Virus record (IMG/VR): IMGVR_UViG_3300028837_000751
Location: 1-44,122 of that record
Reading direction: 5' to 3' (one strand)
From: a virus
DNA length: 44,122 nt
Below, piece after piece: positions 7,121 to 44,122 of this stretch. Both the position numbers and the translations under genes were made by a program. Each line of letters begins with the position of its first letter. Position 1 is the stretch's first letter. The notes below the pieces were generated by a model that saw nothing but the letters and a program-made list of their open reading frames with translations, did not search any database and was not told the origin of the DNA.

Positions 7121-8527
7121 TTATCTCCGATACCTCATCACATCTAGCACTTGTTTCGGTTTCATTGCCAATGTTGCCAACACATAGCTATCTGCTAAAT
7201 CGTCCATTTCTCCTTCTGGCGCTCTGAGTGTACTTCCCTCGATACTTGCCAACTGAGTATAGGTGTCAAATGAATGAATAATTGTTTCCCCATCTCGGAA
7301 AGCGTCGGCGCCTGCGTCGTACATTAGAGCCTTGCCTTTCGTTGTGCTGTGCCACCCCTCGCGTCTATCGTGGCCTGGTAGCCGCTTGAGAAGGGAATTA
7401 TCACGTAGCCAGAGCAAAACAGCATGGCCGTGGTTGTTGCGCTCCACCATCAGGGCGGCACGATTGTAATATGTACCAATCACATCCGCGTGCGCTGCCA
7501 GCGTTGATGGTTGGAATTTTCCCCGCAACTTTGCAACTTCTTCCCCCGTGTCAATGTCCAGCACCGTCAACGCGCTATCGTCACTTGTCGGGTTGCCCTC
7601 TGCCGGGTCCGCGCCTATCCCGTAGGTATGCCCCGCCTCTGGTTCTCGATAGATTGTCAGCCCTGGTATAGCAGGTGAGCCCGGAGGTTCAATCGGTTCT
7701 TGCTCTATGTAGCATTGCTCCAACCAGGCGGGTGCAATTCGTTTATCAAGTGTTCTGGCCGAAAGTGCCTCCGTATCAGTCGCCGGGTATTGCTCATGCA
7801 AATCGTCCAGTGAGCCCGTCCGGTGCAAGATGTCCGCTGTTTGCGCCTCGTACCACTCAGTATCACGCTCGGGTCTGGCCTGCCAAGGTAAGAAAATCGC
7901 TACCCAGTCATTCAACTTCTGTTTGGCCGCCCGATAGATATTTTTGAATTCACTTTGCGGCTTGCTCTTCTCACTTCTACTAAGTAAGATCATCCGCCCG
8001 CCCGCGTCGATGGTTGGTTTTACAGACCGCATCAGCCGCCCCAGATCGGGTATCAAATCGGCCTCGTCCACAATTGCCAGACTGGCCGTGTAACTGTCCC
8101 CCGCCGTGGTTGGAAACGCTCGCGCCACGCTTCCATTACTGAGTTGAAACTCGTGGTCGTTGTCTTCAATAATCGCCCTGGCTTGCATCCATCGAGGGAG
8201 ACGTCTGTACATTCCCTTTAATCTATCACTCAGCAAGTGCACTGATTCGTCATCGCGCCGACTGAAAAGCAAGATAGTCGATGCGGGCCTGAACAACATT
8301 AACCACAACGCAAACGCCAACACCAGCCACGTCATTCCCAATTGTCTGGCTTTCAAAATGACTATTAGCAGATTGTTAAGGATCGTGATAAGTGCTTTGG
8401 CCTGTAATGGCCACAAGCGAAAATCAATCCAATCGCGTTCTATCGCGTCATAAATGCGACAATAGTTATCAACAAAATAGATTGGCGATTCGGAGCACTT
8501 GAGCCATTCAACCGTTTCATTCGTCAT
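7121..8527 (-). CDS. terL: Terminase large subunit
   Basis: 468 residues. ATPase half: Walker A KARQLGMT (59-66), Walker B LAIVDEAD (150-157), and a coupling motif GRMILLSRSEKS. Nuclease half: GIGADPAEGNPTSDDSA with its catalytic Asp, MVERNNHG, and a C-terminal DLADSYVLAT Asp, together matching the RNase H-like fold of viral terminases. It packages DNA into the procapsid through the portal encoded next door. Start ATG at 8527 overlaps the small subunit by 11 bp. Contains two dispersed palindrome sites (7250-7260, 7853-7863). Confidence 0.97.
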   Translation of the reverse strand: MTNETVEWLKCSESPIYFVDNYCRIYDAIERDWIDFRLWPLQAKALITILNNLLIVILKARQLGMTWLVLAFALWLMLFRPASTILLFSRRDDESVHLLSDRLKGMYRRLPRWMQARAIIEDNDHEFQLSNGSVARAFPTTAGDSYTASLAIVDEADLIPDLGRLMRSVKPTIDAGGRMILLSRSEKSKPQSEFKNIYRAAKQKLNDWVAIFLPWQARPERDTEWYEAQTADILHRTGSLDDLHEQYPATDTEALSARTLDKRIAPAWLEQCYIEQEPIEPPGSPAIPGLTIYREPEAGHTYGIGADPAEGNPTSDDSALTVLDIDTGEEVAKLRGKFQPSTLAAHADVIGTYYNRAALMVERNNHGHAVLLWLRDNSLLKRLPGHDRREGWHSTTKGKALMYDAGADAFRDGETIIHSFDTYTQLASIEGSTLRAPEGEMDDLADSYVLATLAMKPKQVLDVMRYRR

Positions 8528-12198: not shown

Positions 12199-13449
12199 CT
12201 ACTTAAACCTACTTAAAATCCGCTTGACTTCATTATTCTGGTTGCCACCCTTAGAGCCAAAAACAGCCTCAGCGATTGCCGAAACACTCTTACCCTCTTC
12301 CTTCATACTCAGTATTCGCTGCTCGATTTCGCTCAATTCGGGCTCTGGCAATTCCAAGCTAGGCTTGCTGACTGTCCAGGTTTGTCCATTAAACTCGCCT
12401 GGTAGAATGGTCGGGATCGTCTCCGTGTGATCATCATACTTGATCTTGATGATTGCTGAGCGTTCACCAGTCACCTGATTGTAGTTAATTTTGACGATTA
12501 CCAGACCATCCTTCAAATCTCCCCGACCGGACAACTTTAGAGGCTCCACCCGCTCGGAATGAGATCCCAGCCAAAGATGAACATTGGCTTTCCTCGCCTC
12601 GGTGAGCAATCGCCGGAAACATTTCGCCGCGTTGGGACACTCATCAGCAATCGCCATCCATTCATCGACGACGACAGTGATTAGCCTATGCCCTTCCTCT
12701 TCGACCAGCCCGTCGCCAATCTCCCCATATCGTCTTTCCATCAGAGCGACAAATCCATCAAGTGCCCTGGAGATTTCTGCATGATCCGAACCACGACCAA
12801 TAACCTCGGCAGGCCACGTAGTAGGCCCCGCATGGGGGTCGATTACAACCACTTTCCCCAAGTGAGCGCGCTCAGTGACCATCCATTTTAAAAGAGTTGT
12901 CTTTCCTGCATCGGAAGCACCGACAATCAAGCCACGCTTGACTGGTCTTAGAAATGAAAGCAAATCCACCGGCTGCACCGCGTCGAGCAAATTCTGTCCC
13001 GCGGTGATTGCACCTCGATTAGCCGTCGCGTGGAACGAGTGATACAACGCCCACGTTTGGATTTCGGCCTCGGTTGGTAGCTGCCCCTCTGCGATTAGCA
13101 CCCGCGAATCCAACGTCAAGTTGCGGTATCGCCCGTTGCTCTCATGCACCCAAATTTGCTGGTTGACTGGTGCCGTGATTGTCGTAATCGCCGCCTCGTG
13201 TTCTGCCTTATGCCGCGCCGCTCTCATACTCAGTATGGTCTCCGCGCCAAACCAAACACCATATGCGACGACGACAATCCCCCCGATACTGAGTATCACG
13301 AGCATAACGTGAGACAGAACCACGCCCAATCTGAGCATATCCGAGATTGTCTCCCTCAGCATATCCGGCACGAGGATAAGAGCCAGGCAGGCGAAAATGG
13401 ATAGCAGACCTAGAATGATAGATATGATACTTGCTCTCATAACAGCCAT
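12199..13449 (-). CDS. Membrane-anchored FtsK/HerA-type DNA translocase-like ATPase
   Basis: 416 residues from ATG at 13449 (GAGG five bases before). Two transmembrane helices (about 5-28 and 40-68). Walker A GASDAGKT (177-184) in GLIVGASDAGKTTLLKW; Walker B ITVVVDEW (257-264) followed by MAIADE; sensor-like WLGSHSERVE. The C-terminus (about 375-416) is a helix-turn-helix-like domain (SVSAIAEAVFGSKGGNQNNE), the position of the DNA-reading gamma domain in FtsK. The family pumps double-stranded DNA at the membrane in division, conjugation or packaging. Lying beside parM and parR it may move or segregate phage DNA. Three perfect palindromes of the dispersed family are within it (12305, 13226, 13286). 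Could also be a conjugation-type coupling ATPase. Confidence 0.8.
   Translation of the reverse strand: MAVMRASIISIILGLLSIFACLALILVPDMLRETISDMLRLGVVLSHVMLVILSIGGIVVVAYGVWFGAETILSMRAARHKAEHEAAITTITAPVNQQIWVHESNGRYRNLTLDSRVLIAEGQLPTEAEIQTWALYHSFHATANRGAITAGQNLLDAVQPVDLLSFLRPVKRGLIVGASDAGKTTLLKWMVTERAHLGKVVVIDPHAGPTTWPAEVIGRGSDHAEISRALDGFVALMERRYGEIGDGLVEEEGHRLITVVVDEWMAIADECPNAAKCFRRLLTEARKANVHLWLGSHSERVEPLKLSGRGDLKDGLVIVKINYNQVTGERSAIIKIKYDDHTETIPTILPGEFNGQTWTVSKPSLELPEPELSEIEQRILSMKEEGKSVSAIAEAVFGSKGGNQNNEVKRILSRFK
13226..13296. repeat. Pair of perfect dispersed palindromes 60 bp apart
   Basis: ATACTCAGTAT at 13226-13236 and ATACTGAGTAT at 13286-13296, start-to-start 60 bp, both inside the sequence encoding the second transmembrane helix region of the FtsK-like protein (reading as ILSM and ILSI). 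The closest pair of perfect sites in the genome. Confidence 0.85.
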
Positions 13450-13667
13450 GCTAACCTCGACCAAAAACCTAAACGTTTTTTGCGCTTTCTAGGCTTCAAT
13501 TTCCCAATCCACTGACCCAGCCGCACCGAAGATTCCAATACAACAACTAAAATCTGGAGCAAAATCAAGAATGCCTGCGCGATCTTCTGGAGGGTCACAC
13601 CATCCACGTCATCCGATTTGAGCTTAATCTGTATTAGAATTTCGTCACGGAGTACCCAGGTACTCAT
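13437..13667 (-). CDS. Small amphipathic/membrane protein
   Basis: 76 residues, MSTWVLRDEI. A soluble N-terminus (QIKLKSDDVDGV), a hydrophobic helix at about 30-46 (AFLILLQILVVVLESSV), then a very basic stretch (KPRKRKKRLG). Overlaps the FtsK-like gene by 13 bp, suggesting a partner of that membrane ATPase. No family recognised. Confidence 0.55.
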   Translation of the reverse strand: MSTWVLRDEILIQIKLKSDDVDGVTLQKIAQAFLILLQILVVVLESSVRLGQWIGKLKPRKRKKRLGFWSRLAWLL

Positions 13668-13673
13668 TATTGC

Positions 13674-13865
13674 CTATCCCGCCCCGGATGCGCCTTTTGG
13701 CTCCAATACAGTATATTTCGCGTCATACTCGATCCAACGATTTGGATTAGCTGGATCACGCTTGATATGTTTTGTGCCAGAAAGCCCGTGCTTCTCGCAC
13801 AGCATGCGATAGTGCTCATCGGGTGATACAAGATATCCATCTTTGAGTTTAATTCGTATTGTCAT
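13674..13865 (-). CDS. Small hypothetical protein
   Basis: 63 residues from ATG at 13865 (MTIRIKLKDG), preceded by GAGGGAG. Contains strands and a KHIKRDPANPNRWIEYD segment; ends GASGAG. It lies between parR-like and the small membrane gene in the same unit. Start could be one of two adjacent ATGs. Function unknown. Confidence 0.55.
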   Translation of the reverse strand: MTIRIKLKDGYLVSPDEHYRMLCEKHGLSGTKHIKRDPANPNRWIEYDAKYTVLEPKGASGAG

Positions 13866-13966
13866 CTCCCTCATCCCCCTCGATACGAAACAAATCATTC
13901 ATATCTCAGTCCCTTTCGGTGATCCACGTGATACCAATATGTCGTGTTCACCTCCCTTTGCTCCTT

Positions 13967-14248
13967 TCATAATCCGAGATTGTCAAGCGCACTTGCTATA
14001 TCTTCGGGCTCCTCCGACATCTCGTTGTGATTCCCGCTACTCAGTATCACGCCTCCTTGCCCGATTTTACGCTCCAAGGCCAGCACAGCCTGGTAGACGT
14101 CGCCCAGAGTAATCTCGTGCGCTAGATAGCTTGAGAGAGCCTCACGGATGGCTTTCGATTTGCCACGCTTAGGCAAATTGTCAAGCCAGCGTGCCAAGGC
14201 AGGATACTCAGTGTCGTCAAACGTAAACGTTTCAGTCCTTTTCGCCAT
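13967..14248 (-). CDS. parR: ParR-like centromere-binding protein (ribbon-helix-helix)
   Basis: 93 residues, MAKRTETFTF, with AAGGAAG before ATG. Residues 5-45 fit a ribbon-helix-helix: beta strand TETFTFDD, helix YPALARWLDN, then SKAIREALSSYLAHE. The C-terminus ends EDIASALDNLGL, an acidic amphipathic peptide like the ParR tail that grips ParM filaments. It is the second gene after the actin-like parM, with one small gene between. In R1-type systems ParR coats iterated centromere repeats; here two ATACTNAGTAT-family sites lie in the gene (14037, 14204) and one just upstream (14277). Assignment is by fold pattern, size, tail and neighbour, so moderate. Confidence 0.65.
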   Translation of the reverse strand: MAKRTETFTFDDTEYPALARWLDNLPKRGKSKAIREALSSYLAHEITLGDVYQAVLALERKIGQGGVILSSGNHNEMSEEPEDIASALDNLGL

Positions 14249-14276
14249 ATCTTCCTTCTAGTATTACTTGGCTATA

Positions 14277-14287
14277 CTACTCAGTAT
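14277..14287. repeat. Dispersed palindrome-family site upstream of parR
   Basis: CTACTCAGTAT (10 of 11) ends at the stop codon of the preceding gene, 29 bp before the ParR start. Together with sites inside parR at 14037-14047 and 14204-14214 it makes three sites in 250 bp, the densest local group and a natural place for autoregulation by ParR. Confidence 0.75.
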
Positions 14288-14673
14288 TACTGCTGGATAA
14301 AAGCCAGCACCTCCAGCACTGCCAAGCACACGGCGCGTTCCTCGGTATCGGCGTAGGTATGCCCGATTACGCTGCGCTTGGGGATTACTCTGAATTCGAT
14401 TGGCTCGATAGGGTGATTTGTATTCGTCAACCGATACCACCATTTGCGGCGTCTCAATTCCGCCTTGACTAGCGCGCAGGCGGCAGGGTCGTTAAGTGGG
14501 TTAAAATCGTGATAGGTAATGGCCCCGGTAACACCAATAGTATCATTCGCACGCCGAAACCAGACGGTACCCGTTATCCCTTCAAATGAATAAAGGCCAA
14601 TTATCTGTTTATCATCGGTAAACTGCCAACCCATAAACTCAGCAAGCCATTCGATTATTTCTTGATCAGTCAT
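14287..14673 (-). CDS. Phage ABA-sandwich-like small protein
   Basis: 128 residues from ATG at 14673 (MTDQEIIEWLAEFMGW); ATGA overlap with the ParM stop fixes the start. The pattern EIxEWLAExMGW, FNPLNDPAAC, then RRKWWYR, and a C-terminal EERAVCLAVLEVLAFIQQ is that of the phage ABA-sandwich family, small accessory proteins seen in many phages and plasmids. Its place between parM and parR is unusual. Confidence 0.65.
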   Translation of the reverse strand: MTDQEIIEWLAEFMGWQFTDDKQIIGLYSFEGITGTVWFRRANDTIGVTGAITYHDFNPLNDPAACALVKAELRRRKWWYRLTNTNHPIEPIEFRVIPKRSVIGHTYADTEERAVCLAVLEVLAFIQQ

Positions 14674-15650
14674 GATTTCCCTCCTAATCGTTGCGCAAAC
14701 TTCCAATACCCGCTAGCATTCGCAAACACGGGGTCCTCCACCACGCGAGCATGGCGGAAACGTTTCTTAATCACCGGGCCTAGGAGAAGCGCACCGCCAC
14801 CACTCACGAGGATGGCAGATAAAGAAGCGCCCGCGTTCCACAACTGAGTAGCCTGCGCCACAATCTGCGCGGCCATCGGTTCGAGGGCGGCATCCACGAC
14901 CGGCCCCAAATCCACCTTCCCATCGTAATAGGCCACGGAGCGCGCTATCATTGCCTCGATAACCTGATGGTCTCTCAGCACCAGGTCGGGGCAGTGATTG
15001 CTCAGATAATCCCGTACCATCCGCGCCGCGTCCCACGAGCCAACGTTGACAGAGGCAGTCTCACGAGCGATTTCTGCCAAGCGATTGACAGATAAGAGAT
15101 TTGTCGTTTTCCCGCCAACGTCCACAATGCCGATTTTCCCCGTCGCCAACTCAGTATCAGCAACACGACCGCGATTATCCAGGGCCAGGGACAGAAGGCT
15201 TCCGAACGGCTGTGGGATTACGCGGCAATCCCCAACCCTGAAGACCTGCGAACGGCGCCCCTCACGGGCTGCGCGGTGCTCGCCGAGGAGAAGATCCCGC
15301 AGCTTATCCTTGTCGCCATAGTAGGCCACGGGCAAGCCGGTTACGACCGTGAGCTCGCACGAAGTGGCCGTGGTAAGCTCGGTGAAAGTCGCCAGCACCA
15401 GGCGATAGTATTCAGCACTCGTAATCCAATCCCTATCCTCCCATCTCGGAGCAAACCGCGATTGCTCTACCGCGCCCTGGCCAACGAGGAAGGTGCCGTC
15501 AGCCAAGTTGAGAATAATGTCATTCTCCCCCGCGCCATCGAGGGAAAATCTAGCCCGGTCCGGCGTGCCGACAACGCTAGGGAAGGTCACGCGCCGGTCG
15601 TTGCCAATCGCTTTCACGGCACTATACCCTACGTCGAGTCCTGTGTTCAT
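14670..15650 (-). CDS. parM: Actin-like plasmid segregation ATPase (ParM/Alp type)
   Basis: 326 residues. Actin-fold nucleotide motifs are clear: phosphate-1 GLDVGYSAVKA (4-14), phosphate-2 GIVDVGGKTTN (174-184), and adenosine motif ILVSGGGALLL (280-290). TVVTGLPVAYY (about 101-111) is a segment also typical of the ParM/Alp7/PRTRC-type branch. Such proteins form dynamic filaments that push plasmid copies apart when capped by ParR bound to a centromere. ATG at 15650 overlaps the stop of the 47-residue gene. A dispersed palindrome site is at 15147-15157. Presence next to a ParR-like gene and in a phage with an integrase is notable. Virulent phages also use actin/tubulin homologues for intracellular positioning, an alternative. 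Confidence 0.85.
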   Translation of the reverse strand: MNTGLDVGYSAVKAIGNDRRVTFPSVVGTPDRARFSLDGAGENDIILNLADGTFLVGQGAVEQSRFAPRWEDRDWITSAEYYRLVLATFTELTTATSCELTVVTGLPVAYYGDKDKLRDLLLGEHRAAREGRRSQVFRVGDCRVIPQPFGSLLSLALDNRGRVADTELATGKIGIVDVGGKTTNLLSVNRLAEIARETASVNVGSWDAARMVRDYLSNHCPDLVLRDHQVIEAMIARSVAYYDGKVDLGPVVDAALEPMAAQIVAQATQLWNAGASLSAILVSGGGALLLGPVIKKRFRHARVVEDPVFANASGYWKFAQRLGGKS

Positions 15651-15806: not shown

Positions 15807-16289
15807 TTAATCAACAGCATCCGCGAAGGCGATTGCCATCCGCTTAGCATCTTCTAACGTTTTTGCCTCGAATCCAACGGGCAGTCTCAAATCTTCCTCC
15901 GGGTGCTCTTCCAGATACTCATCTGTCCAGCCAGACGTAGCACACAGATGGTTCTCGCTGGTCACCACATCCCCAATACCAAAGCCACAAAGGGCTCGAT
16001 GTGACCAGCCATACCATTTCTGATTGGTCTCGGAAAAGCCGATAGTGCATGTCCGCCCTCTGCCGCCGTTTGCCTCCAGATCGCATGATCGGGGCTCCGG
16101 CTTGATACCCCGTTTCTTGCACAGTCTATAGGCCATCACAGGGTCGCCGATATAATGCCCCTCTGGTATCGTATATGCTGACTTGATCTCGAAATCGTCA
16201 CACTCGAACTCTGAGCCATCAATCAACTCAGTATGTACCTCATACCCCGCTTTGTAGTATCTGATCTTCAACACTTGCTTTACTGACAT
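15807..16289 (-). CDS. Hypothetical conserved-looking phage protein
   Basis: 160 residues, MSVKQVLKIRYYKAG, with AAGGAGG before ATG. Several Cys (RLCKKRG, SCDLEANGGRGRTC, RALCGFGIGD, HLCATSG) and aromatic Trp (KWYGWSHRA) suggest a metal- or nucleic-acid-binding fold. The central GFSETNQKWYGWSHRA is a striking motif of unknown meaning. Contains a site of the dispersed palindrome family at 16224-16234. Confidence 0.6.
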   Translation of the reverse strand: MSVKQVLKIRYYKAGYEVHTELIDGSEFECDDFEIKSAYTIPEGHYIGDPVMAYRLCKKRGIKPEPRSCDLEANGGRGRTCTIGFSETNQKWYGWSHRALCGFGIGDVVTSENHLCATSGWTDEYLEEHPEEDLRLPVGFEAKTLEDAKRMAIAFADAVD

Positions 16290-16417: not shown

Positions 16418-17272
16418 CTACATCCTATCCTGCATGTCCGCTATCGCTTCCTCGATTGACAAATCATTCTCCACCGCCCACAAGTCAATCACGTCCCAGG
16501 GGAGCTTAGTACAGCCTGCGAAACAACCACACAAGTCACGCTTGGCATCAATCCAAAACGAGGGATTTTTATCATCATGATATGGACATCTCGTGACGTA
16601 CCAACCATCACCCGATTTCTTAGCATCGGGGAAGAAGTCCAGAATTGGATAACTTCGTTTAATCCTCGACACTAAATCACCCCGCCCATTGCCCCGGATA
16701 GGCTTGGGCTTGGCAATCTGGACTATGCTAGGAATGTCCAGAATATCACCAATGCCGTCTACACTCAGTATCGGTGTGGACTTGTCCAGGGCAGTATAGG
16801 CAGTCCCCGATGGGTGAATGCTCGGCGGCACCAAAACGTATCCCCCACCTGCTTTGACATCTATTCCTGGTAACATGAATCCGCTGACAGGATTTTTTAG
16901 AAAAAAGTAGCAATGCACGCCGCGCGTTGTGAGTACTGAGTATGTGGCTGGTAAGCTACTGTCTTTTTGCCAGTCATTGTAAACAATGAAGTCATCAAAG
17001 TCTACCACCACTAGATTTTGCCAGCCGGTGATAATGGCCAAATTATGGCGGGTTGAAAACCAACGCTTTATCTCTTCCTCCGTTGGCAATCGTTTCTGAT
17101 ATGGTTCCCAGGTGTGTTTGGGTTTTCCATTGTCCAGATAAATCAGATTGCCATCTTCATCATACTTGAGAGGCAATAAATTAGCATCGGGTCTTTTATT
17201 CTTGTACAGAATTGGAATAGGCGCAATTCCTTGATGCAACCAATCTAGTGCTGTTGAGAGAATGTCAAGCAT
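16418..17272 (-). CDS. Primase: Prim-Pol domain with C-terminal CHC2-type zinc finger
   Basis: 284 residues. N-terminal archaeo-eukaryotic primase/polymerase (Prim-Pol) pattern: LVVVDFDD with catalytic Asp pair (91, 93), TTRGVHCYF (115-123) and DVKAGGGYVLVPPSIH (138-153). A zinc finger follows: CPYHDDKNPSFW (229-240) and CGCFAGC (248-254). It would make primers, and perhaps extend them, during phage replication. Gene order primase, origin-like gap, VirE-like helicase is a compact replication module. Two dispersed palindrome sites lie within it (16761, 16933). Confidence 0.9.
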   Translation of the reverse strand: MLDILSTALDWLHQGIAPIPILYKNKRPDANLLPLKYDEDGNLIYLDNGKPKHTWEPYQKRLPTEEEIKRWFSTRHNLAIITGWQNLVVVDFDDFIVYNDWQKDSSLPATYSVLTTRGVHCYFFLKNPVSGFMLPGIDVKAGGGYVLVPPSIHPSGTAYTALDKSTPILSVDGIGDILDIPSIVQIAKPKPIRGNGRGDLVSRIKRSYPILDFFPDAKKSGDGWYVTRCPYHDDKNPSFWIDAKRDLCGCFAGCTKLPWDVIDLWAVENDLSIEEAIADMQDRM

Positions 17273-17579
17273 TTGTCACATTCCTGTTACATTTCTGTAA
17301 AACAACATTTTATGGTAAAGCAGATTAGTATTGTAATACCAATGTAGCTACAATTGTGAATATTCTAGTAATTTGCTATCTGTCATTTTGTTTGTCATAA
17401 TCATTGAAATATCTATGATAATCTACCATTTTGGCCTTTCTCTATGACACATATGACACATATGACAGATAATGCCTATTAAAGTATTCCCTCCCCCCCC
17501 CTATAGTACTAAAGTATTAGTACATTATATAATAGGAATAACTGTCATTATCTGTCATCTGTCATTTTCCTTGTCATAA
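17273..17579. other. Probable replication origin: AT-rich gap with TGTCAT iterons
   Basis: 307 bp without a gene between helicase and primase. TGTCAT or its complement occurs nine times: 17381, 17393, 17444, 17453, 17462, 17543, 17553, 17560 and 17572. The three at 17444-17470 are perfect 9-bp tandem units ATGACACAT, ATGACACAT, ATGACAGAT, flanked by TGTCAT groups in the opposite orientation. A hairpin GTACTAA-AGTA-TTAGTAC (17506-17523) and a C9 run (17493-17501) lie between. High A+T and position within the replication genes support an iteron origin; a dense operator is the alternative. Confidence 0.75.
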
Positions 17580-18746
17580 TCACGGTATTAATGATTTCCT
17601 GCGAATGCCTTTGTAGCCACGTGCTGTAGTCGTTCTGTGCTTTTCCACGTTCAGTTTCTTCATCGTCGCCGCGATGCGTCTTGACATTCCAATACTGCTT
17701 TCGCGAATGCCAGCATCTTGCAGCATAGAGAGAATATCCGTTGCGGGTGAAAAATCGAATGGATTGTGAGTAATATCGAAATGCTCCTTGATTAAATCCT
17801 CAACCGGGTCCTGAATTTCGTATTCTTGGTTAATCTTTGCCTGTTGTTTCGCCTCATCTGCCGTCAAGTGCCACTGTTCACCATCAAAGTAGGCTTGCTG
17901 AGCCTCCGCCCACACCATGTTGACATCCACGTCGGTTGAATAATTCCAGTCAATCTTGGTGAGAGAACAGATATTGAATCGCCTGTTACCGGTCGGATCA
18001 CTCAAGACTCCGCCTTCGTCGTTGAACGTGCCGATGAAACTAGCCAACGCTGGCTTATCCATTGCGTGCTTTCCCCACGGTTTGCGCACCGTGACAAGCT
18101 CTATGGTGAGAAAGAATTTCAGCGCCTCTCGGTCTGTTTTACGTGTCGTTGCTCCTAATTCTCCCACTTCCCACACCCACTTGGTAGCTAAACTGATAAG
18201 ACTATCCTTGTCGTCGGGGCTGATCGGGGCCTCGACGTACAAGCCAGAGATGGGACAGAGCCACTTGACAAAATATGACTTACCTACGTTTTGCGGTCCC
18301 TCCAGCACGAGCATCATATTTTGATAGCCCGTGTGAGCTTTGGCCACTGCCCCAATCAGCCAGCGACGCAGGTAAATGTGAAACATGTTATGCTTGTCCT
18401 CGAAGTATGTCGCCAATTGACTGATGTAATTCCCCCCGTCCCAGGTGAGCCCACCTAAATAGTCCTTGACGGGATGAAAGCTGTTACCCCTTGCCTCTGC
18501 GATATAAGCATCTTCAAACGCTCTAATGCGCTTCGTGTAAATCGCTTTCTTGTCTCGCATCCTGACGCGGATTTCGGCGGCCAGGGCGTCATTCAGACGT
18601 TCCCCGCTCACGTAAATGCTATCATCTCTGAGATCCATTCTGAACGTGTACCCCAGGCCGGCGAGTTCTTTAATGTAATCTGCCGAAGTCAACCGGCTGT
18701 TTTTGGGGGTAACGATAGTAGTCTTTTGCGTGGTCGTGGTCGCCAT
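17580..18746 (-). CDS. VirE-family superfamily 3-like replicative helicase/ATPase
   Basis: 388 residues from ATG at 18746 (MATTTTQKTT), GAGG upstream; a GTG further up overlaps the preceding gene. Contains a Walker A EGPQNVGKS (149-157), Walker B-like WVWEVGEL (190-197), an arginine-containing LSDPTGNRRFNIC sensor region and FIGTFND. This is the virulence-associated E type found with phage and plasmid Prim-Pol primases. C-terminal 90 residues form a winged-helix-like segment (SMSRRIAATMKKLNVEKHR style). It opens DNA at the neighbouring iteron region. Confidence 0.88.
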   Translation of the reverse strand: MATTTTQKTTIVTPKNSRLTSADYIKELAGLGYTFRMDLRDDSIYVSGERLNDALAAEIRVRMRDKKAIYTKRIRAFEDAYIAEARGNSFHPVKDYLGGLTWDGGNYISQLATYFEDKHNMFHIYLRRWLIGAVAKAHTGYQNMMLVLEGPQNVGKSYFVKWLCPISGLYVEAPISPDDKDSLISLATKWVWEVGELGATTRKTDREALKFFLTIELVTVRKPWGKHAMDKPALASFIGTFNDEGGVLSDPTGNRRFNICSLTKIDWNYSTDVDVNMVWAEAQQAYFDGEQWHLTADEAKQQAKINQEYEIQDPVEDLIKEHFDITHNPFDFSPATDILSMLQDAGIRESSIGMSRRIAATMKKLNVEKHRTTTARGYKGIRRKSLIP

Positions 18747-18774
18747 AGGGGCCTCGGATTTTAAGGTGCTATTT

Positions 18775-20031
18775 TCAAAGCGTTGGATACTCACGTATTC
18801 TTTGACTGTCACTCATGCCGGGAATGAGATTAGTTTTCCAGTAAATCTTACACTTGGCTGCATGAGCTTGATTGTAAAGATGCACAATATCAGGAATTGG
18901 CGGTCGGTATTCTGGCGTCTGGCTCGATTTCGAGGCACCACCCATTACAACCCAGTCAAATACGTCAAGATTAGGGAATGTCAAGCATTCCATCATTGGT
19001 TCACAAGACAACCAACAAATGCCATCGAATCCCGATGCTTTGATTTTGCTGAATGCCTCTTCTGCCTGCTCTACTCTATGTTGTCTATCAACAGTTGTTC
19101 CAAGCCAGACATTAGGCGGGTAGACAAACTCAGCCATGCGGATGGGGAATTTGGTTAGTAGCAGGAAATTCCATTGTGGGTTAGTAGCGATGGTTCTTAG
19201 AGTTGCGTTAATCCATTCCTCTGGTACCCAATCGCCGAAAAGGTCTGCCATACTGCAAACGAAAACACCTCGATAACCGATATCGTCTTGCCAACGAGGA
19301 GAGGGTACTTTCGTATTTGTTGGTGCCGTCAATCGACTGGGCTTGAACGTCGGTTGAAAATGTTGCGGGTAGAACCGATTGGCAATATCGCGAGCATAGC
19401 AATAAGGGCAATTGTTAAGACATCCCGTGACTGGGTTCCAAGACCAAAGCGCCCATTCGATGTTTTCATTGACTTGGTTCATCGGTTTCGTGTTAAGATT
19501 GGGTTGTGTCAAGATGCGTTGACATTCGTCTTCACTGAGTTTTTGCCACTCATCAAGCGTGATCCAATCCTTTTCAAGTTCGGCTTGTTTGCGTTGTACT
19601 TCGGCCTCTACAATTTTGGCGGTGATATTTCGGCCATCAGTGTTAGCTATGACACGTTGCCAAACTTCAGCCCGCAATTCGGGTTTTTCCAATTTGGTGA
19701 GTGGGCGGATATGGGTTTCACGAGTGGGAAGCTCAACTTTAGTAGAGCTTTTATCAACTAAGGTTGATGTTAGTTGAGCCAAGATTTCACAAGCTATAAT
19801 GATTTGATGGGCTCTTTGAAAACTCATTTCCCACCGTTCTTGTATGTATCGCTCCCAGGTACAACCCGACTCGAAGGCAATGTACCATTTATTATCACGT
19901 ATTAATTTGAGTTTTGCTCCCCACACCTCAAATTTGTGACGATCTGCCCGCTCCATGTCCTGTTCAGCAAGAGCCAATTGTTCTTTTACTGCGTCCATCG
20001 CTTGGATTTCTTCTTGTGTGAATATGTCCAT
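18775..20031 (-). CDS. Gp37/Gp68-type three-Cys protein (DUF5131) fused to an N-terminal DNA-binding-like domain
   Basis: 418 residues. The C-terminal two-thirds begins WSWNPVTGCLNNCPYCYARD; Cys 204, 208 and 211 form a CxxxCxxC cluster like radical-SAM proteins, then PTFKPSRL, GVFVCSMADLFGDW and LLLTKFPIRM, all landmarks of the phage Gp37/Gp68 family. The N-terminal 150 residues are extra: a helical segment with SFQRAHQIIIACEIL and RPLTKLEKPELRAEVWQ, similar in layout to ParB-like or plasmid HTH regions. Family members are usually paired with a three-Cys-motif partner, as here (20041-20793). Reaction unknown; modification of nucleic acid or protein is inferred from the iron-sulphur-like cluster. 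Confidence 0.8.
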   Translation of the reverse strand: MDIFTQEEIQAMDAVKEQLALAEQDMERADRHKFEVWGAKLKLIRDNKWYIAFESGCTWERYIQERWEMSFQRAHQIIIACEILAQLTSTLVDKSSTKVELPTRETHIRPLTKLEKPELRAEVWQRVIANTDGRNITAKIVEAEVQRKQAELEKDWITLDEWQKLSEDECQRILTQPNLNTKPMNQVNENIEWALWSWNPVTGCLNNCPYCYARDIANRFYPQHFQPTFKPSRLTAPTNTKVPSPRWQDDIGYRGVFVCSMADLFGDWVPEEWINATLRTIATNPQWNFLLLTKFPIRMAEFVYPPNVWLGTTVDRQHRVEQAEEAFSKIKASGFDGICWLSCEPMMECLTFPNLDVFDWVVMGGASKSSQTPEYRPPIPDIVHLYNQAHAAKCKIYWKTNLIPGMSDSQRIREYPTL

Positions 20032-28889: not shown

Positions 28890-29062
28890 GCTTCTTCCTT
28901 CCAAACTCGCGCCGCTGCACCGACTTTCACCCGTCCGCCGTTCTCAATGTCAGCTAAGTCGGTCTGGCTCAAGCGTTTCTTGATGCGCTCCCACTCTTCA
29001 GCGGTGAGCGTGAAGGATTTCGTCAGGTGCTCGTAGGGGTTGAAGTATCGATAAGTGTTCAT
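28886..29062 (-). CDS. 58-residue small early protein
   Basis: ATG at 29062 overlaps the stop of the upstream regulator (TAATG) and its own stop overlaps the next start (ATGA). Product MNTYRYFNPYEHLTKSFTL, then AEEWERIKKRLSQTDLADI and KVGAAARVWKEEA. Well coupled on both sides, so almost certainly translated, although below common length cut-offs. Function unknown. Confidence 0.7.
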   Translation of the reverse strand: MNTYRYFNPYEHLTKSFTLTAEEWERIKKRLSQTDLADIENGGRVKVGAAARVWKEEA

Positions 29063-29325
29063 TAATGGTCTCCCACCAAAATCAAAATCCCGGCCTCGGT
29101 GGCAAATTCGTTATCCGTGATTTTTTCACGGAGGTAGCTTTCCGCGAGTTCTCTGAGCCGGGCCATCTGTTTGCTGTCGCCTGGGTCTCTAGTTTGTCGC
29201 CAGTGATCCACGATAATGCGCACCGCACCTGATAGGGAAGTATGATGTGCATGACGCAATGTTTCAAATTCTGCCCAATCAGTTTTGGGTATTCTGATGG
29301 TTTTTGCTATGACTTGTTCTCCCAT
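29062..29325 (-). CDS. Ribbon-helix-helix early regulator (Cro/Arc-like)
   Basis: 87 residues from ATG at 29325 (MGEQVIAKTIRIPK). A longer reading to 29439 is excluded because it would begin inside the promoter. Strand AKTIRIPK, helix DWAEFETLRHAHHT and helix SLSGAVRIIVDHWRQ fit an Arc/CopG ribbon-helix-helix. A helical C-terminus (MARLRELAESYLREKI) may oligomerise. First gene downstream of the early promoter and opposite the XRE repressor, the place of Cro. Could bind the 10-bp repeats at 29405-29430 or the dispersed palindrome. Confidence 0.7.
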   Translation of the reverse strand: MGEQVIAKTIRIPKTDWAEFETLRHAHHTSLSGAVRIIVDHWRQTRDPGDSKQMARLRELAESYLREKITDNEFATEAGILILVGDH

Positions 29326-29404
29326 TACTGCGTCCCCCTTGGGTGATGTTTTGTATCTTAGGAGTGACATAGAGGGTAAAAAAAACTTGCCTCCTAAACT
29401 CCTA

Positions 29405-29430
29405 TGCACCATTATACACCACTTTGCACC
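29405..29430. promoter_or_regulatory. Three 10-bp-spaced TRCACC repeats over the early promoter
   Basis: TGCACC (29405), TACACC (29415) and TGCACC (29425) recur exactly every 10 bp, one helical turn, covering the -10 box and spacer. The arrangement suits cooperative binding by a ribbon-helix-helix protein on one DNA face. The core TACACC resembles the TTACACC cluster at 12141-12198. Confidence 0.6.
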
Positions 29431-29439
29431 GTTTGTCAA
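29411..29439 (-). promoter_or_regulatory. Consensus early leftward promoter
   Basis: Minus strand TTGACA (29439-29434), 17-bp spacer, TATAAT (29416-29411): a perfect sigma70 promoter driving the early operon from 29325 leftward. Its start site lies near 29400. Confidence 0.95.
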
Positions 29440-29494: not shown

Positions 29495-29851
29495 ATGTGT
29501 GAAAAACTACGCCGTTGGTTAATAGACGAATTGGATGATCGAGGGTGGTCGCATCGGGAACTATCGAGACGGTCAAGAATATCACATGCTCAAATATCTG
29601 GTTTCCTATCTGGCGAGCGGGGGATAGGACTAGACACAATTAATGCTATCTCTCGCGTGCTGCAAATCCCACCCGAGAAATTATTAGAGATGGCTGATCT
29701 ATTACCGTCCACCATCCCGAAGGATCACACGTTTGATGAGATCTTCAAAGTCATGAAACGGCTCAGTCCCGAACGTCGCCGGGAATTATTGGAGTTTGCC
29801 TATCTCCAATCTCGTTTGCAAGAAAGAGAAACAAACAAAGAGAGCAGTTGA
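29495..29851 (+). CDS. XRE-family repressor (cI-like)
   Basis: 118 residues, MCEKLRRWLIDELDDRG. Helix-turn-helix at about 18-45 (HRELSRRSRISHAQISGFLS) with a following GLDTINAISRVLQIPPEKLL, the XRE/HTH_3 layout. C-terminal helical segment IFKVMKRLSPERRRELLEFA may dimerise; no protease-type cleavage domain, so not a LexA-style repressor. It diverges from the early promoter 56 bp away, so it most likely maintains lysogeny. Likely operator candidates are the palindrome at 11234-11248 and repeats at 29405-29430. Ribosome-binding site is weak (GGGGGT at 29476). Confidence 0.85.
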   Translation: MCEKLRRWLIDELDDRGWSHRELSRRSRISHAQISGFLSGERGIGLDTINAISRVLQIPPEKLLEMADLLPSTIPKDHTFDEIFKVMKRLSPERRRELLEFAYLQSRLQERETNKESS

Positions 29852-30135: not shown

Positions 30136-30188
30136 GCCTCTCACGGTTCACATCCGTGAGGTCACAAGTTCGAATCTTGTCGCGCCCA
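30136..30188 (+). other. attP: attP core: 3' half of tRNA-Val(CAC)
   Basis: Anticodon arm CACGG-TTCACAT-CCGTG (30142-30158) gives anticodon CAC; variable AGGTC; T arm ACAAG-TTCGAAT-CTTGT (30064 offset: 30164-30180); acceptor strand CGCGCCC plus A. There is no D arm or 5' acceptor strand, so this is not a functional tRNA gene. Integration at the host tRNA-Val gene would restore its 3' end. Crossover is expected in the anticodon region. Host 5' acceptor should read GGGCGCG. Confidence 0.9.
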
Positions 30189-30240
30189 CTTTTTATTAGT
30201 CCAGACTTCACAAGACCCCGAAATACCATACCTGTGTGGT

Positions 30241-30289: not shown

Positions 30290-31273
30290 ATGAAAATTGC
30301 CTTGTCCCAGGCGATTGACGGGTTTTTATTGGACAAAGAAATCGCAGGCGCATCACCCTATACCATCCGCAATTACAAGTTAAGCTTACATAGATTTGCC
30401 GCCTTCCTCGAGACAGACCCCCCGATACTTAGTATAGAGACAAGCCACGCCCGCGCCTATCTTCACCATTTCCAGACCACACAGCTTACCCCTGCAGGAA
30501 TTGCGCCTAGACCCGCCAAACTCCCTAGCCCTAAAACGGTCCTCAACGAGTACACCGCTTTGGCCTCGTTTTGGTCTTGGGCCGTCGCGGAGGGCTATAC
30601 TGAGTGCCATATTATTCAGCCTATCAAGCCACCTCGACCGTCCGAGCACAACATTGATCCCATTACTCAGGCTGATTTTCAAGCGTTGCTCAAGGCGGTT
30701 AATTTTGCCAATCCCTGGAAAACTAAGCCTCGCACGCGCTCCCATCGGCCCGAAATTCTCCGCCAGCGTGACCGCGCCATATTGCTCTTCTTACTCGATA
30801 CCGGCGTGAGAGCGGCTGAATTGTGCCGGTTGTGCATCGCCGACCTAGATCTAAAAAACGGCTCTGCCACGGTTGCAGGCAAAAGTCGCCTTAATTCTGG
30901 ACGGGGGAAGGTGCGCGTGGTCCACTTCGGGCGAAACACGCGAAAGGCAATCTGGGAGTACTTGACCACTCGCGAGGCAAATTCTGACGATCCAGTATTC
31001 GCTACTATTGGGGGAGGCTTTCTAGACCGGCGCCACCTAGGGCGACACATCAAGCGACTGGCAGAGCGTGCCGGGCTCAAAAATGTAAATCCTCACCGCT
31101 TTCGTCACACTTTCGCCATCAATTATCTGCGAAACGGCGGAGATATTTACACGCTACAATCCATTTTGGGACATACTAGCCTGGACATGGTGCGACGCTA
31201 TTTGCGCATCGCTGAGGCTGATTGCGCCGACGCACACCGGAGAGCTAGCCCGGTTGACAATTGGTTCAAGTAG
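30290..31273 (+). CDS. int: Tyrosine-family site-specific integrase
   Basis: 327 residues. Catalytic residues all present: Arg174 (TGVRAAELCRL), Lys in GKSRLNSGRGKVR (about 198-207), His269-Arg272 (NPHRFRHTF), His295 (ILGHTSLDM) and Tyr304 (VRRYLRI). The N-terminal SAM-like core-binding domain spans about 1-105. It recombines attP (30136-30188) with a host tRNA-Val gene; a Xer-like role in resolving dimers is an alternative. A T-centred palindrome ATACTTAGTAT occurs at 30425-30435 and another family site at 30597. Confidence 0.96.
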   Translation: MKIALSQAIDGFLLDKEIAGASPYTIRNYKLSLHRFAAFLETDPPILSIETSHARAYLHHFQTTQLTPAGIAPRPAKLPSPKTVLNEYTALASFWSWAVAEGYTECHIIQPIKPPRPSEHNIDPITQADFQALLKAVNFANPWKTKPRTRSHRPEILRQRDRAILLFLLDTGVRAAELCRLCIADLDLKNGSATVAGKSRLNSGRGKVRVVHFGRNTRKAIWEYLTTREANSDDPVFATIGGGFLDRRHLGRHIKRLAERAGLKNVNPHRFRHTFAINYLRNGGDIYTLQSILGHTSLDMVRRYLRIAEADCADAHRRASPVDNWFK

Positions 31274-42273: not shown

Positions 42274-44122
42274 TTAGTTGTCGGCCATCGTCGCAAACAT
42301 ATTCCAGTTGTCCCCATTCCAGATAAGCGAGATACAATCTCCCGCCCCACCAGTTAGTGTCTGGTCCCCTCCGATGTCTGTATTGGCCCCATCCTTGATG
42401 ACTACGTTCTGAGCGTCCTCGTTGCAGATTATGAGAAGAGTGCCAGCGACGGCACCGTCAGCGATTGCCGTAGTTGCACTCGTATCAATGCTTCCCTCCG
42501 TCGAGTTGGTAATCGGTTGGTATGACGCTGCAGGCGTGATAGTGCCACCTGCCCCCAAGTCAATCACGTTACCCTCGGTCAGTGCCAGGAAGCCGCCGAT
42601 TTGTACAGCAGTATCAGTATTGTTGGAAATGGTTTCGCCGTTCTGAAGGCGAATATCAGTTGTCAGGTCGGCTTCCGACATGTCAATTCCATATGCCCAG
42701 TCGTCGTTAGCAGCCGCACCAGATCCCGCACTTTCGATCCTCAGAGCGACGTCCGCCCCACCCCCCAACTCGGAAGTATTTCGGATATTGATACCCCATT
42801 CATTCGTGGCATCGTCTGCGTCTTTGCGTTTGAGTTCCACGTCAAGCACATTGATCATATCGGAGATATCGCCTTCCTGCTCGACGTAAATATGAGCACC
42901 ATAAGCGTACTCGACCTCACTGCCAGCATCGGTATCGGCGGTAAACTGAGCGCCGCGCAAGACACTCACGTCCGAGTTGTTATCTGCCTTGCTCACAACG
43001 TCGATTCCTTGTTGCACCCCGCCAGTTGTCGTAGTGGCCGCATCGGAGTCGATTGTGACCTTCAGGGCAGTATCATCGATATTGCCGTGTGTGGTTGGGC
43101 TGCCAGCCGGACGGTTGACATCGATGAGCAATCCACGCGTCTTGGCGTTTTCCGCAACTCCAGTCGCCTCACCAGAGATCTTCACGAGATTCTCATAGCC
43201 GGTCGTCGATACACGAGTGGCAGTGATTTGTGTCGATCCAGTGATCCCGATATATCCATCAGTCACATTGTTGATACTTTCGCCGTTGCTCAGCCGGATG
43301 TCAGCCGTTACGATATCTGCCGGGCTCAGATCGACTCCATAGACCCAGTCAGCGTTGTCAGATGACCCACCAGCGCCGTAAGAGCTTTCCAGCCGATAAC
43401 CCACATCCGCACCAGTGCCGGCACTGGAAGTGTTGCGCAAGTTGATCCCGTATTCGGTTGTAGGCTCATTCGAGCTCTTTCGATTGAGCTCAAAGTCGCC
43501 AACTTGCACAGCCGTCGCCGTTGCACCATCAGCAATCTCTGCGTGTGCCCGGAATGGCACTTGTGCATCTGCCGTTGCGGAGTCATCGAGTACTGCTGTC
43601 GCGACCACGCCGCGAATAGTGCCCGCTTTGTGGCCATCGTCAACCTTGCCTTCAAAGTCCCCGCCAGTCTCGACGATGCCAGCGGTGCGCGAGGTCGCAC
43701 TGGTCTTATACCTGACTTTGACTCCAGCATCGTCGATGTTGCCACTGGCACTGTTGGCTGTACGCTCCATATCGACAAACAATCCGTAAGTTTTCGCACC
43801 GCTCAACGTGCCAGTAACATCACCCTCAACAGTCAGAAAGTAGTCATAGTCGGAGGTGTCATCACGAGCTCCTGCCACTGTGAGGTTGCCATCATAAGAA
43901 CCCGTTGCGTTGAAGTCCCCACCTAGGGTGATTAGACCATTAGTCGTATTCGCGATAGTCTCTTCATTCTGAAGCCGAATATCCGCCGTTGTTGCATCGG
44001 CGGAAGCCATATCTATACCATAGGCCCAGTCATCATCGGCTGAAGATCCACCAGCCCCGTATGACGATTCAATTCTCAGAGCCGTATCCGCGCCACCTCC
44101 TGCTGAGGAAGTATTACGAATA
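42274..44122 (-). CDS. Secreted giant repeat protein, C-terminal part (joined to 1-1584)
   Basis: Continues from base 1: position 44007 follows base 1 in the circle, and 44008-44122 duplicates 1-115. An internal ATG at 44010 is not the true start. This part holds the end of module 2, modules 3 (from about 43880) and 4 (from about 43225), and a C-terminal capping domain of about 110 residues with SYQPITNSTEG, TAIADGAVAGTLLIICN and a final DCISLIWNGDNWNMF. That cap resembles those ending other phage tail or environmental surface proteins. Each module keeps the GNIDDA and ADIRLQN landmarks, with fewer matches in module 4, as expected for ageing duplications. Confidence 0.85.
   Translation of the reverse strand, partial: IRNTSSAGGGADTALRIESSYGAGGSSADDDWAYGIDMASADATTADIRLQNEETIANTTNGLITLGGDFNATGSYDGNLTVAGARDDTSDYDYFLTVEGDVTGTLSGAKTYGLFVDMERTANSASGNIDDAGVKVRYKTSATSRTAGIVETGGDFEGKVDDGHKAGTIRGVVATAVLDDSATADAQVPFRAHAEIADGATATAVQVGDFELNRKSSNEPTTEYGINLRNTSSAGTGADVGYRLESSYGAGGSSDNADWVYGVDLSPADIVTADIRLSNGESINNVTDGYIGITGSTQITATRVSTTGYENLVKISGEATGVAENAKTRGLLIDVNRPAGSPTTHGNIDDTALKVTIDSDAATTTTGGVQQGIDVVSKADNNSDVSVLRGAQFTADTDAGSEVEYAYGAHIYVEQEGDISDMINVLDVELKRKDADDATNEWGINIRNTSELGGGADVALRIESAGSGAAANDDWAYGIDMSEADLTTDIRLQNGETISNNTDTAVQIGGFLALTEGNVIDLGAGGTITPAASYQPITNSTEGSIDTSATTAIADGAVAGTLLIICNEDAQNVVIKDGANTDIGGDQTLTGGAGDCISLIWNGDNWNMFATMADN
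44008..44122. repeat. 115-bp terminal direct repeat (assembly overlap of a circular genome)
   Basis: Identical to bases 1-115 and in phase with the reading frame across the join. The other copies of this protein module differ at DNA level, so it is not just an internal repeat. This supports a circular or circularly permuted molecule; the module count of the repeat gene could still be collapsed by the assembler. Confidence 0.9.

Follow-up and report, generated by a model that had tools for sequence, protein, structure and literature searches.

An actin-type partition cassette in a temperate phage genome

In the virus record IMGVR_UViG_3300028837_000751 (the window, meaning the whole stretch of 44,122 nucleotides that was analysed), a run of genes on one strand encodes a ParM-type actin-like ATPase, a ribbon-helix-helix (RHH) ParR-like adaptor and a predicted FtsK/HerA-type ATPase with a C-terminal helix-turn-helix (HTH), together with small open reading frames (ORFs) (Table 1). 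The record has a terminal direct repeat of 115 bp, which indicates that it is a complete, circularly permuted phage genome of 44,007 bp; its GC content is 0.51. The virion gene set is full (the terminase TerL, portal, scaffold, major head protein and tape measure), and there are replication and recombination genes (VapE helicase, prim-pol, RecT, exonuclease and ERCC4 nuclease) and a lysogeny module composed of a Cro/C1-type repressor and a tyrosine integrase. The par genes belong to the replication part of a run of same-strand genes that continues to the terminase.

Table 1. Features of the window discussed in the text
Feature	Position	Strand	Basis
TerL	7121-8527		
Predicted membrane-anchored FtsK/HerA-type ATPase, C-terminal HTH	12199-13440	-	Walker motifs; AlphaFold2 and Foldseek; relatives
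Small ORF with hydrophobic stretch and basic tail, between parR and ATPase gene	13437-13667	-	No Pfam match
Small ORF between parR and ATPase gene	13674-13898	-	ORF list; no Pfam match
ParR-like adaptor, 93 aa	13967-14248	-	RHH domain and C-terminal tail EP.D.A.ALD.LGL; family alignment
139-aa ORF between parM and parR	14287-14706	-	ORF list; no Pfam match
ParM/Alp-type actin-like ATPase, 326 aa	14670-15650	-	Pfam, phrog_691, PDB ParMs, tree clade
Prim-Pol primase	16418-17272	-	Pfam Prim-Pol 2.8e-19; upstream of par genes in the same gene run
Candidate centromere parC (or origin iterons)	17370-17600	.	9 TGACA/TGTCA repeats in AT-rich gap between helicase and prim-pol genes
VapE-like replicative helicase	17580-18812	-	Pfam 1.3e-41; phrog_1313
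Cro/C1-type HTH repressor	29495-29851	+	Pfam HTH_26 3.5e-9, HTH_3 9.8e-9
Attachment site attP	30142-30193	+	52 bp identical to 3' part of Anaerolineae tRNA-Val(CAC) gene
Tyrosine integrase	30290-31273	+	Pfam Phage_integrase 1.2e-31; phrog_1

ParM and ParR are of partition type

ParM matches the Pfam families ALP_N (8.7e-25) and MreB-like_C (6.6e-14), the phrog_691 family annotated as partition protein (1.4e-55) and, in PDB, the ParM of pCBH (3.4e-14), while a search with PF06406 (StbA_N) was uninformative, as the controls were equally without a match. The nucleotide-site motifs GLDVGYSAVK, IVDVGGKTT and VSGGGA are all intact, and the core residues D6, G8, K13, G179, T182, G284 and G285 are invariant in alignments of relatives. 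The protein thus appears to be an intact, full-length Alp/ParM-type actin. A tree of 48 ParMs places it in a supported clade of 22 members (support 95/92), in which phages and chromosomal elements are mixed and most members come from Chloroflexota genome elements or IMG/VR phages. Relatives at 62-65% identity are encoded in Anaerolineae genomes, and such a ParM was detected in 38 of 396 of them (E <= 1e-25). Relatives were recovered by alignment-based searches, single-protein scans of viral contigs having found none.

The profile of the ParR family matches 2q2k (E = 1.4e-5), the structure of the pSK41 ParR with its centromere, and the AlphaFold2 model of the protein has helices at residues 16-23, 29-43, 48-63 and 82-90. 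The family alignment shows that conservation extends to another patch, right at the C-terminal end. Known ParRs touch ParM with this tail, and its conservation is therefore as expected here. We identify the 93-aa protein from its family alignment and profile match as an RHH ParR, and an RHH adaptor encoded near parM is the arrangement of type II (ParMRC) partition loci. An earlier note made from the sequence alone had proposed a ParM with intact nucleotide motifs and a ParR-like partner; both proposals are borne out, and the pair is of partition type.

The same note grouped parM, parR and the ATPase gene in one operon. They do share a strand and are nearly contiguous; one ORF separates parM from parR and two separate parR from the ATPase gene, and co-transcription is a prediction. 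The 139-aa ORF has a TTG start overlapping the end of parM and an internal ATG at 14672.

A divergent FtsK/HerA-type ATPase

The ATPase starts with ATG at 13440 or, alternatively, with TTG at 13464, and carries the Walker A motif GASDAGKT and the Walker B motif VVVDEW. Its AlphaFold2 model consists of an N-terminal hairpin of two helices (2-31 and 35-82), a motor and three C-terminal helices; hydropathy and the model both support N-terminal membrane helices. Foldseek matched it to the FtsK motor 6t8b (2.1e-6), to TcpA (6o1x, 5.2e-6) and to EccC motors. Together with the Walker motifs, these matches place it among the P-loop motors of the FtsK/TrwB clade and agree with the description in the earlier note of a two-helix FtsK/HerA ATPase ending in an HTH, which is a prediction. 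A match to phrog_2666 would make it a terminase; we attribute this match to cross-matching of the P-loop, since the window encodes its TerL elsewhere.

Relatives of the ATPase were found in L081, L046, L048 and L047. The ATPase adjoining parM-parR on the Chloroflexi contig L081 is 42% identical to it over the alignment. The motors of such cassettes come in two forms. Most are soluble FtsK proteins, some with an alpha domain, and these soluble relatives at the same position exceed the Pfam FtsK cut-off (FtsK_SpoIIIE, up to 1e-34). The second form is membrane-anchored and divergent with a C-terminal HTH, and includes the window protein and its relatives in L081 (42%) and L046 (29%).

The cassette recurs in Chloroflexota elements

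In most relatives parR follows parM on the same strand at a distance of no more than ~2 kb. ParM-ParR is accompanied by a tyrosine integrase in L071, L141, L143, L144 and L149, and by blastp also in G015, whereas it lies directly upstream of a large serine recombinase in L073, L076 and L085. An FtsK-like gene sits between ParM-ParR and the serine recombinase in L078, L080 and L082 (parM-parR-FtsK-serine recombinase in L080). L071 appears to be an integrative element without recognised phage genes and adjoined by chromosomal-type genes; between 7600 and 17600 it has the order parM-parR-FtsK-tyrosine integrase (4-bp overlap)-D5/NrS-1-type helicase. The flanks of both L071 and L085 are ordinary chromosomal-type genes. 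L081 (6.1 kb) is plasmid-like and has the order parM-parR-small hydrophobic ORF-ATPase-AAA_25 helicase-iterons (AGATTCCCACATTCCCA)-Replic_Relax, the hydrophobic ORF being at the position equivalent to that of the window ORF with a basic tail.

Wherever a full contig with ParM has an FtsK-like gene (seven of seven), the gene shares the strand of parM and lies 0.7-5.5 kb downstream of it (Fisher-combined P ~8e-6 under random placement). Among the shorter loci, however, a few FtsK-like genes lie elsewhere (L083, L153 and L247). Several loci found in both genome searches represent one contig each and count once (L234 and L073, L235 and L082, L236 and L083, L237 and L076). Taken together, gene order and content indicate that parM-parR, often followed by an FtsK-type gene and accompanied by a site-specific recombinase, recurs as a module in integrative elements of Chloroflexota, and that the joining of integration and partition in this phylum is a recurring design and not a one-off. 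The expectation in the earlier note that a prophage uses one strategy fails here, since many phages and chromosomal elements of Chloroflexota encode ParM-ParR together with a tyrosine or a serine recombinase. Integrative and conjugative elements (ICEs; PMC4489591) and the prophage CGP3 (PMC4446434) also join integration with an actin system. A literature search, which was not exhaustive, returned no report of a ParM-FtsK-Chloroflexi combination and no relevant one on ParM in Anaerolineae phages.

That phages and non-phage elements share the module would also fit unused passenger DNA acquired from an integrative element. We consider this very improbable, as none of the three frames is disrupted, their motifs are conserved, and the sister phages G008, G015 and G016 have kept parMR while differing in part of their gene content. 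The plasmid-like and integrative relatives further bring to mind a conjugation-type DNA pump similar to TcpA or TraB, in which case the cassette would be an integrative-conjugative module whose circle can pass from cell to cell and is stabilised by ParMR in recipients. The Foldseek match to the coupling protein TcpA, the presence in L081 of genes for an AAA_25 helicase and Replic_Relax beside parM-parR-ATPase, and the likeness of L071 to elements with FtsK, integrase and replication genes all point this way; however, no relaxase or other transfer gene was detected among the window ORFs scanned, and the complete virion gene set already provides for transfer, which leaves a conjugative role for the phage cassette distinctly unlikely.

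A candidate centromere

Nine copies of TGACA/TGTCA lie within 231 bp, compared with 0.7 in shuffled sequences, and this number was reached in 0 of 5000 shuffles. In a scan for clustered 5-mers the array was the densest of the record (the runner-up had 6). Arrays beside the par genes were also detected in relatives, including TGACA in 16 copies between prim-pol and parM (L088), ACCGACA (L093), TGTCTGACTAGGTCAGACA between parM and parR (L089 and L136), GGACATTTGTCC (L144), GGCAAAGTTTTGCC (L072), GGAAAGAATTTTCC (L014) and CGAAC (L141); those of L088, L093, L089, L136 and L144 share a GACA core. Near-par arrays with scores of at least 17.5 are present in 12 of 35 loci and are, as read from the tabulated scores, rarer far from par. 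In the group formed by L088, L093, L089 and L136 the array occupies one or the other of two places but remains near par, an arrangement that speaks for parC rather than an origin in that group. For the window, the TGACA array is a plausible centromere candidate for ParR.

Dispersed palindromes and neighbouring genes

The first candidate for the centromere was another motif, the 11-bp pseudo-palindrome ATACTSAGTAT, which has 28 dispersed sites (at most one mismatch) versus ~0.5 in shuffles, about a 50-fold excess; its 8-mer core has 39 copies versus 0.9 expected. The sites span 856-42031 (e.g., 2505, 5355, 11555, 12305, 13226, 13286, 20717, 24515, 38700 and 39725), are mostly intragenic and occur in all frames (phases 12/8/2), so that reading frame does not explain them. 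Among the matches listed, a comparable cluster was found in one of 298 Anaerolineae genomes, namely 16 sites in a prophage (G221:C27, 144-174 kb) whose integrase and repressor are related to those of the window. No ParM or ParR was detected in this prophage, one weak match to the ATPase profile falls outside its span, and the sites are absent from the par-bearing relatives examined. We therefore rejected the motif as a par centromere; the sites appear to be phage-specific and to lie outside the par system, possibly with a stoperator-like role. The recognition helices differ between the repressor homologues. Divergent from the window repressor is an RHH/Arc-like gene (29062-29439, minus strand), with an Arc-like gene at the equivalent place in the G221 prophage (144726-144929); the window gene is a candidate for both the Cro equivalent and the binder of the dispersed motif. 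A role for the motif like that of FtsK-orienting polar sequences (KOPS) was likewise rejected, the strands carrying 26 versus 13 sites with no visible polarity around attP, and motif pairs in viral contigs proved to be unrelated local repeats. The contig of another ParM phage (G002, L054-L056) has a dispersed palindrome of its own, TATTTCCYRGGAAATA, with 8 exact arm copies (e.g., 7450, 13374, 15856, 28572, 35637, 39114, 41738 and 45998), resembling the Noc-binding site, and G010 has ATTTCCNNGGAAAT in 3 copies.

Other genes of the window include a match to Tad6, an inhibitor of type I Thoeris, directly upstream of the par genes (15807-16289, minus strand; Pfam E 5.1e-51), and a probable tail fibre with a C-terminal phage depolymerase domain (42274-44010, minus strand; Pfam 5.2e-7). 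A DUF5131 gene (18775-20031, minus strand) is phage Gp37/Gp68-like with a weak radical-SAM match and is fused to an N-terminal extension of ~185 aa that has no family match.

Integration site and host

The attP proposed in the earlier note directly precedes the integrase, and its identity to tRNA-Val(CAC) was found in one of the 396 Anaerolineae genomes. An Anaerolineae (Chloroflexota) host and integration at tRNA-Val are well supported by this identity and by the Anaerolineae relatives of ParM, although an integrated copy of the phage itself was not observed. With an integrase, a repressor, an attP matching a host attB and a full virion set, the window has the genes and sites of an integrating temperate phage.

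Probable maintenance of an excised circle

The window is a complete temperate Anaerolineae phage with integration at tRNA-Val, and it probably carries its type II (actin) partition locus to serve the circle formed on excision. Partition-type ParM and ParR, a plausible centromere, a replication module, an integrase, a repressor and a tRNA-type attP together make it plausible that the phage has both an integrated state and a partitioned circular one. ParR dimers would load onto the TGACA array (17370-17600) and cap ParM filaments with their C-terminal tails, and the filaments could then drive sister circles away from each other or towards the membrane during an extrachromosomal phase, which may follow infection or excision or be that of a plasmid-like lysogen. 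We infer that the membrane-anchored FtsK-like motor belongs to the same pathway and may, at the membrane or septum, pull or clear the double-stranded DNA of the phage. A stronger version seems unlikely. In it, ParM-ParR and the neighbouring FtsK-type motor would be a single machine, an actin spindle combined with a membrane DNA pump, which segregates the circular double-stranded DNA of Chloroflexota integrative elements or transfers it between cells and which phages have adopted.

Several points weigh against maintenance of an excised circle, the evidence for which comes from sequence. Foldseek gave no match for ParR modelled as a monomer; the ATPase model is of modest confidence (mean pLDDT 62.6), its Foldseek TM-scores are ~0.3, and the protein's own Pfam FtsK score is under the cut-off. 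An FtsK-like ATPase is present in only 7 of the 16 full ParM contigs, and the FtsK-like profile was seeded with copies near parM, which introduces bias. Finally, the window array could be a replication origin, because it is located between the helicase and primase genes.

The main rival, which we regard as possible but clearly less probable, is that ParM filaments bring induced, excised phage DNA to the membrane for lytic replication, with the ATPase as docking partner and no stable plasmid lysogen. It would suit par genes placed within the replication region of a run toward the terminase, and it gains from SPO1, a strictly lytic phage with a related actin gene, which extends such actins to strictly lytic phages. 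The integrated prophage CGP3 is a precedent, its AlpC/AlpA/alpS system being used in this way and expressed early after excision (PMC4446434). However, closely related cassettes are found in integrative or plasmid-like elements in which phage genes were not recognised (L071, L080, L085 and L081), which favours maintenance over a purely lytic role.

The findings show that mobile elements of a little-studied phylum routinely join integration with actin-type partition. Naming the recurring parM-parR-FtsK linkage makes it testable whether an actin partition system cooperates with a DNA pump. For vector building, the window offers a temperate phage of Anaerolineae whose attB (tRNA-Val) is defined and which has a candidate partition locus.

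Comparison with known systems

On the simplest reading, parMR would act on a circular extrachromosomal genome as srpMRC does for the SXT/R391 ICEs, where an actin-type type II partition locus stabilises the excised replicating form of an integrase-encoding chromosomal element (PMC4489591). These ICEs are gammaproteobacterial whereas the window is a phage; SrpR is without homology to known ParRs whereas the window ParR is an RHH protein; and an FtsK-type motor beside the locus is not described in the text consulted. The closest phage precedent appears to be AlpAC of the Corynebacterium glutamicum prophage CGP3, in which an actin (AlpC), a DNA-binding adaptor (AlpA) and iterated sites (alpS) are likewise encoded in an integrated phage. 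AlpAC was interpreted as delivering DNA to the membrane for replication, not segregation, and no FtsK-like partner is described in the text consulted (PMC4446434).

With the ParMRC plasmids (R1, pSK41 and pCBH) the window shares an actin ATPase, an RHH adaptor related to the pSK41 ParR and a repeat array as candidate centromere, but it is an integrase-encoding phage, and its candidate centromere lies ~1.7-2 kb upstream of parM and not directly beside it. The cluster A mycobacteriophages are also temperate phages with partition systems, of the ParA type; there parABS replaces the integration cassette and the two do not coexist, whereas the window has both (PMC7157519). The expectation of one strategy per prophage probably stems from these phages, for which it is true. 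The motor shares with the FtsK/SpoIIIE, TcpA and TraB translocases a P-loop motor fold, predicted N-terminal membrane helices and a C-terminal domain of DNA-binding type; it differs in being divergent, under the Pfam cut-off and encoded beside parMR, and in having an HTH in place of the gamma winged helix of FtsK. Actin partition in integrating elements is thus already known from srpMRC and AlpAC, and what is new is the pairing of ParMR with FtsK.

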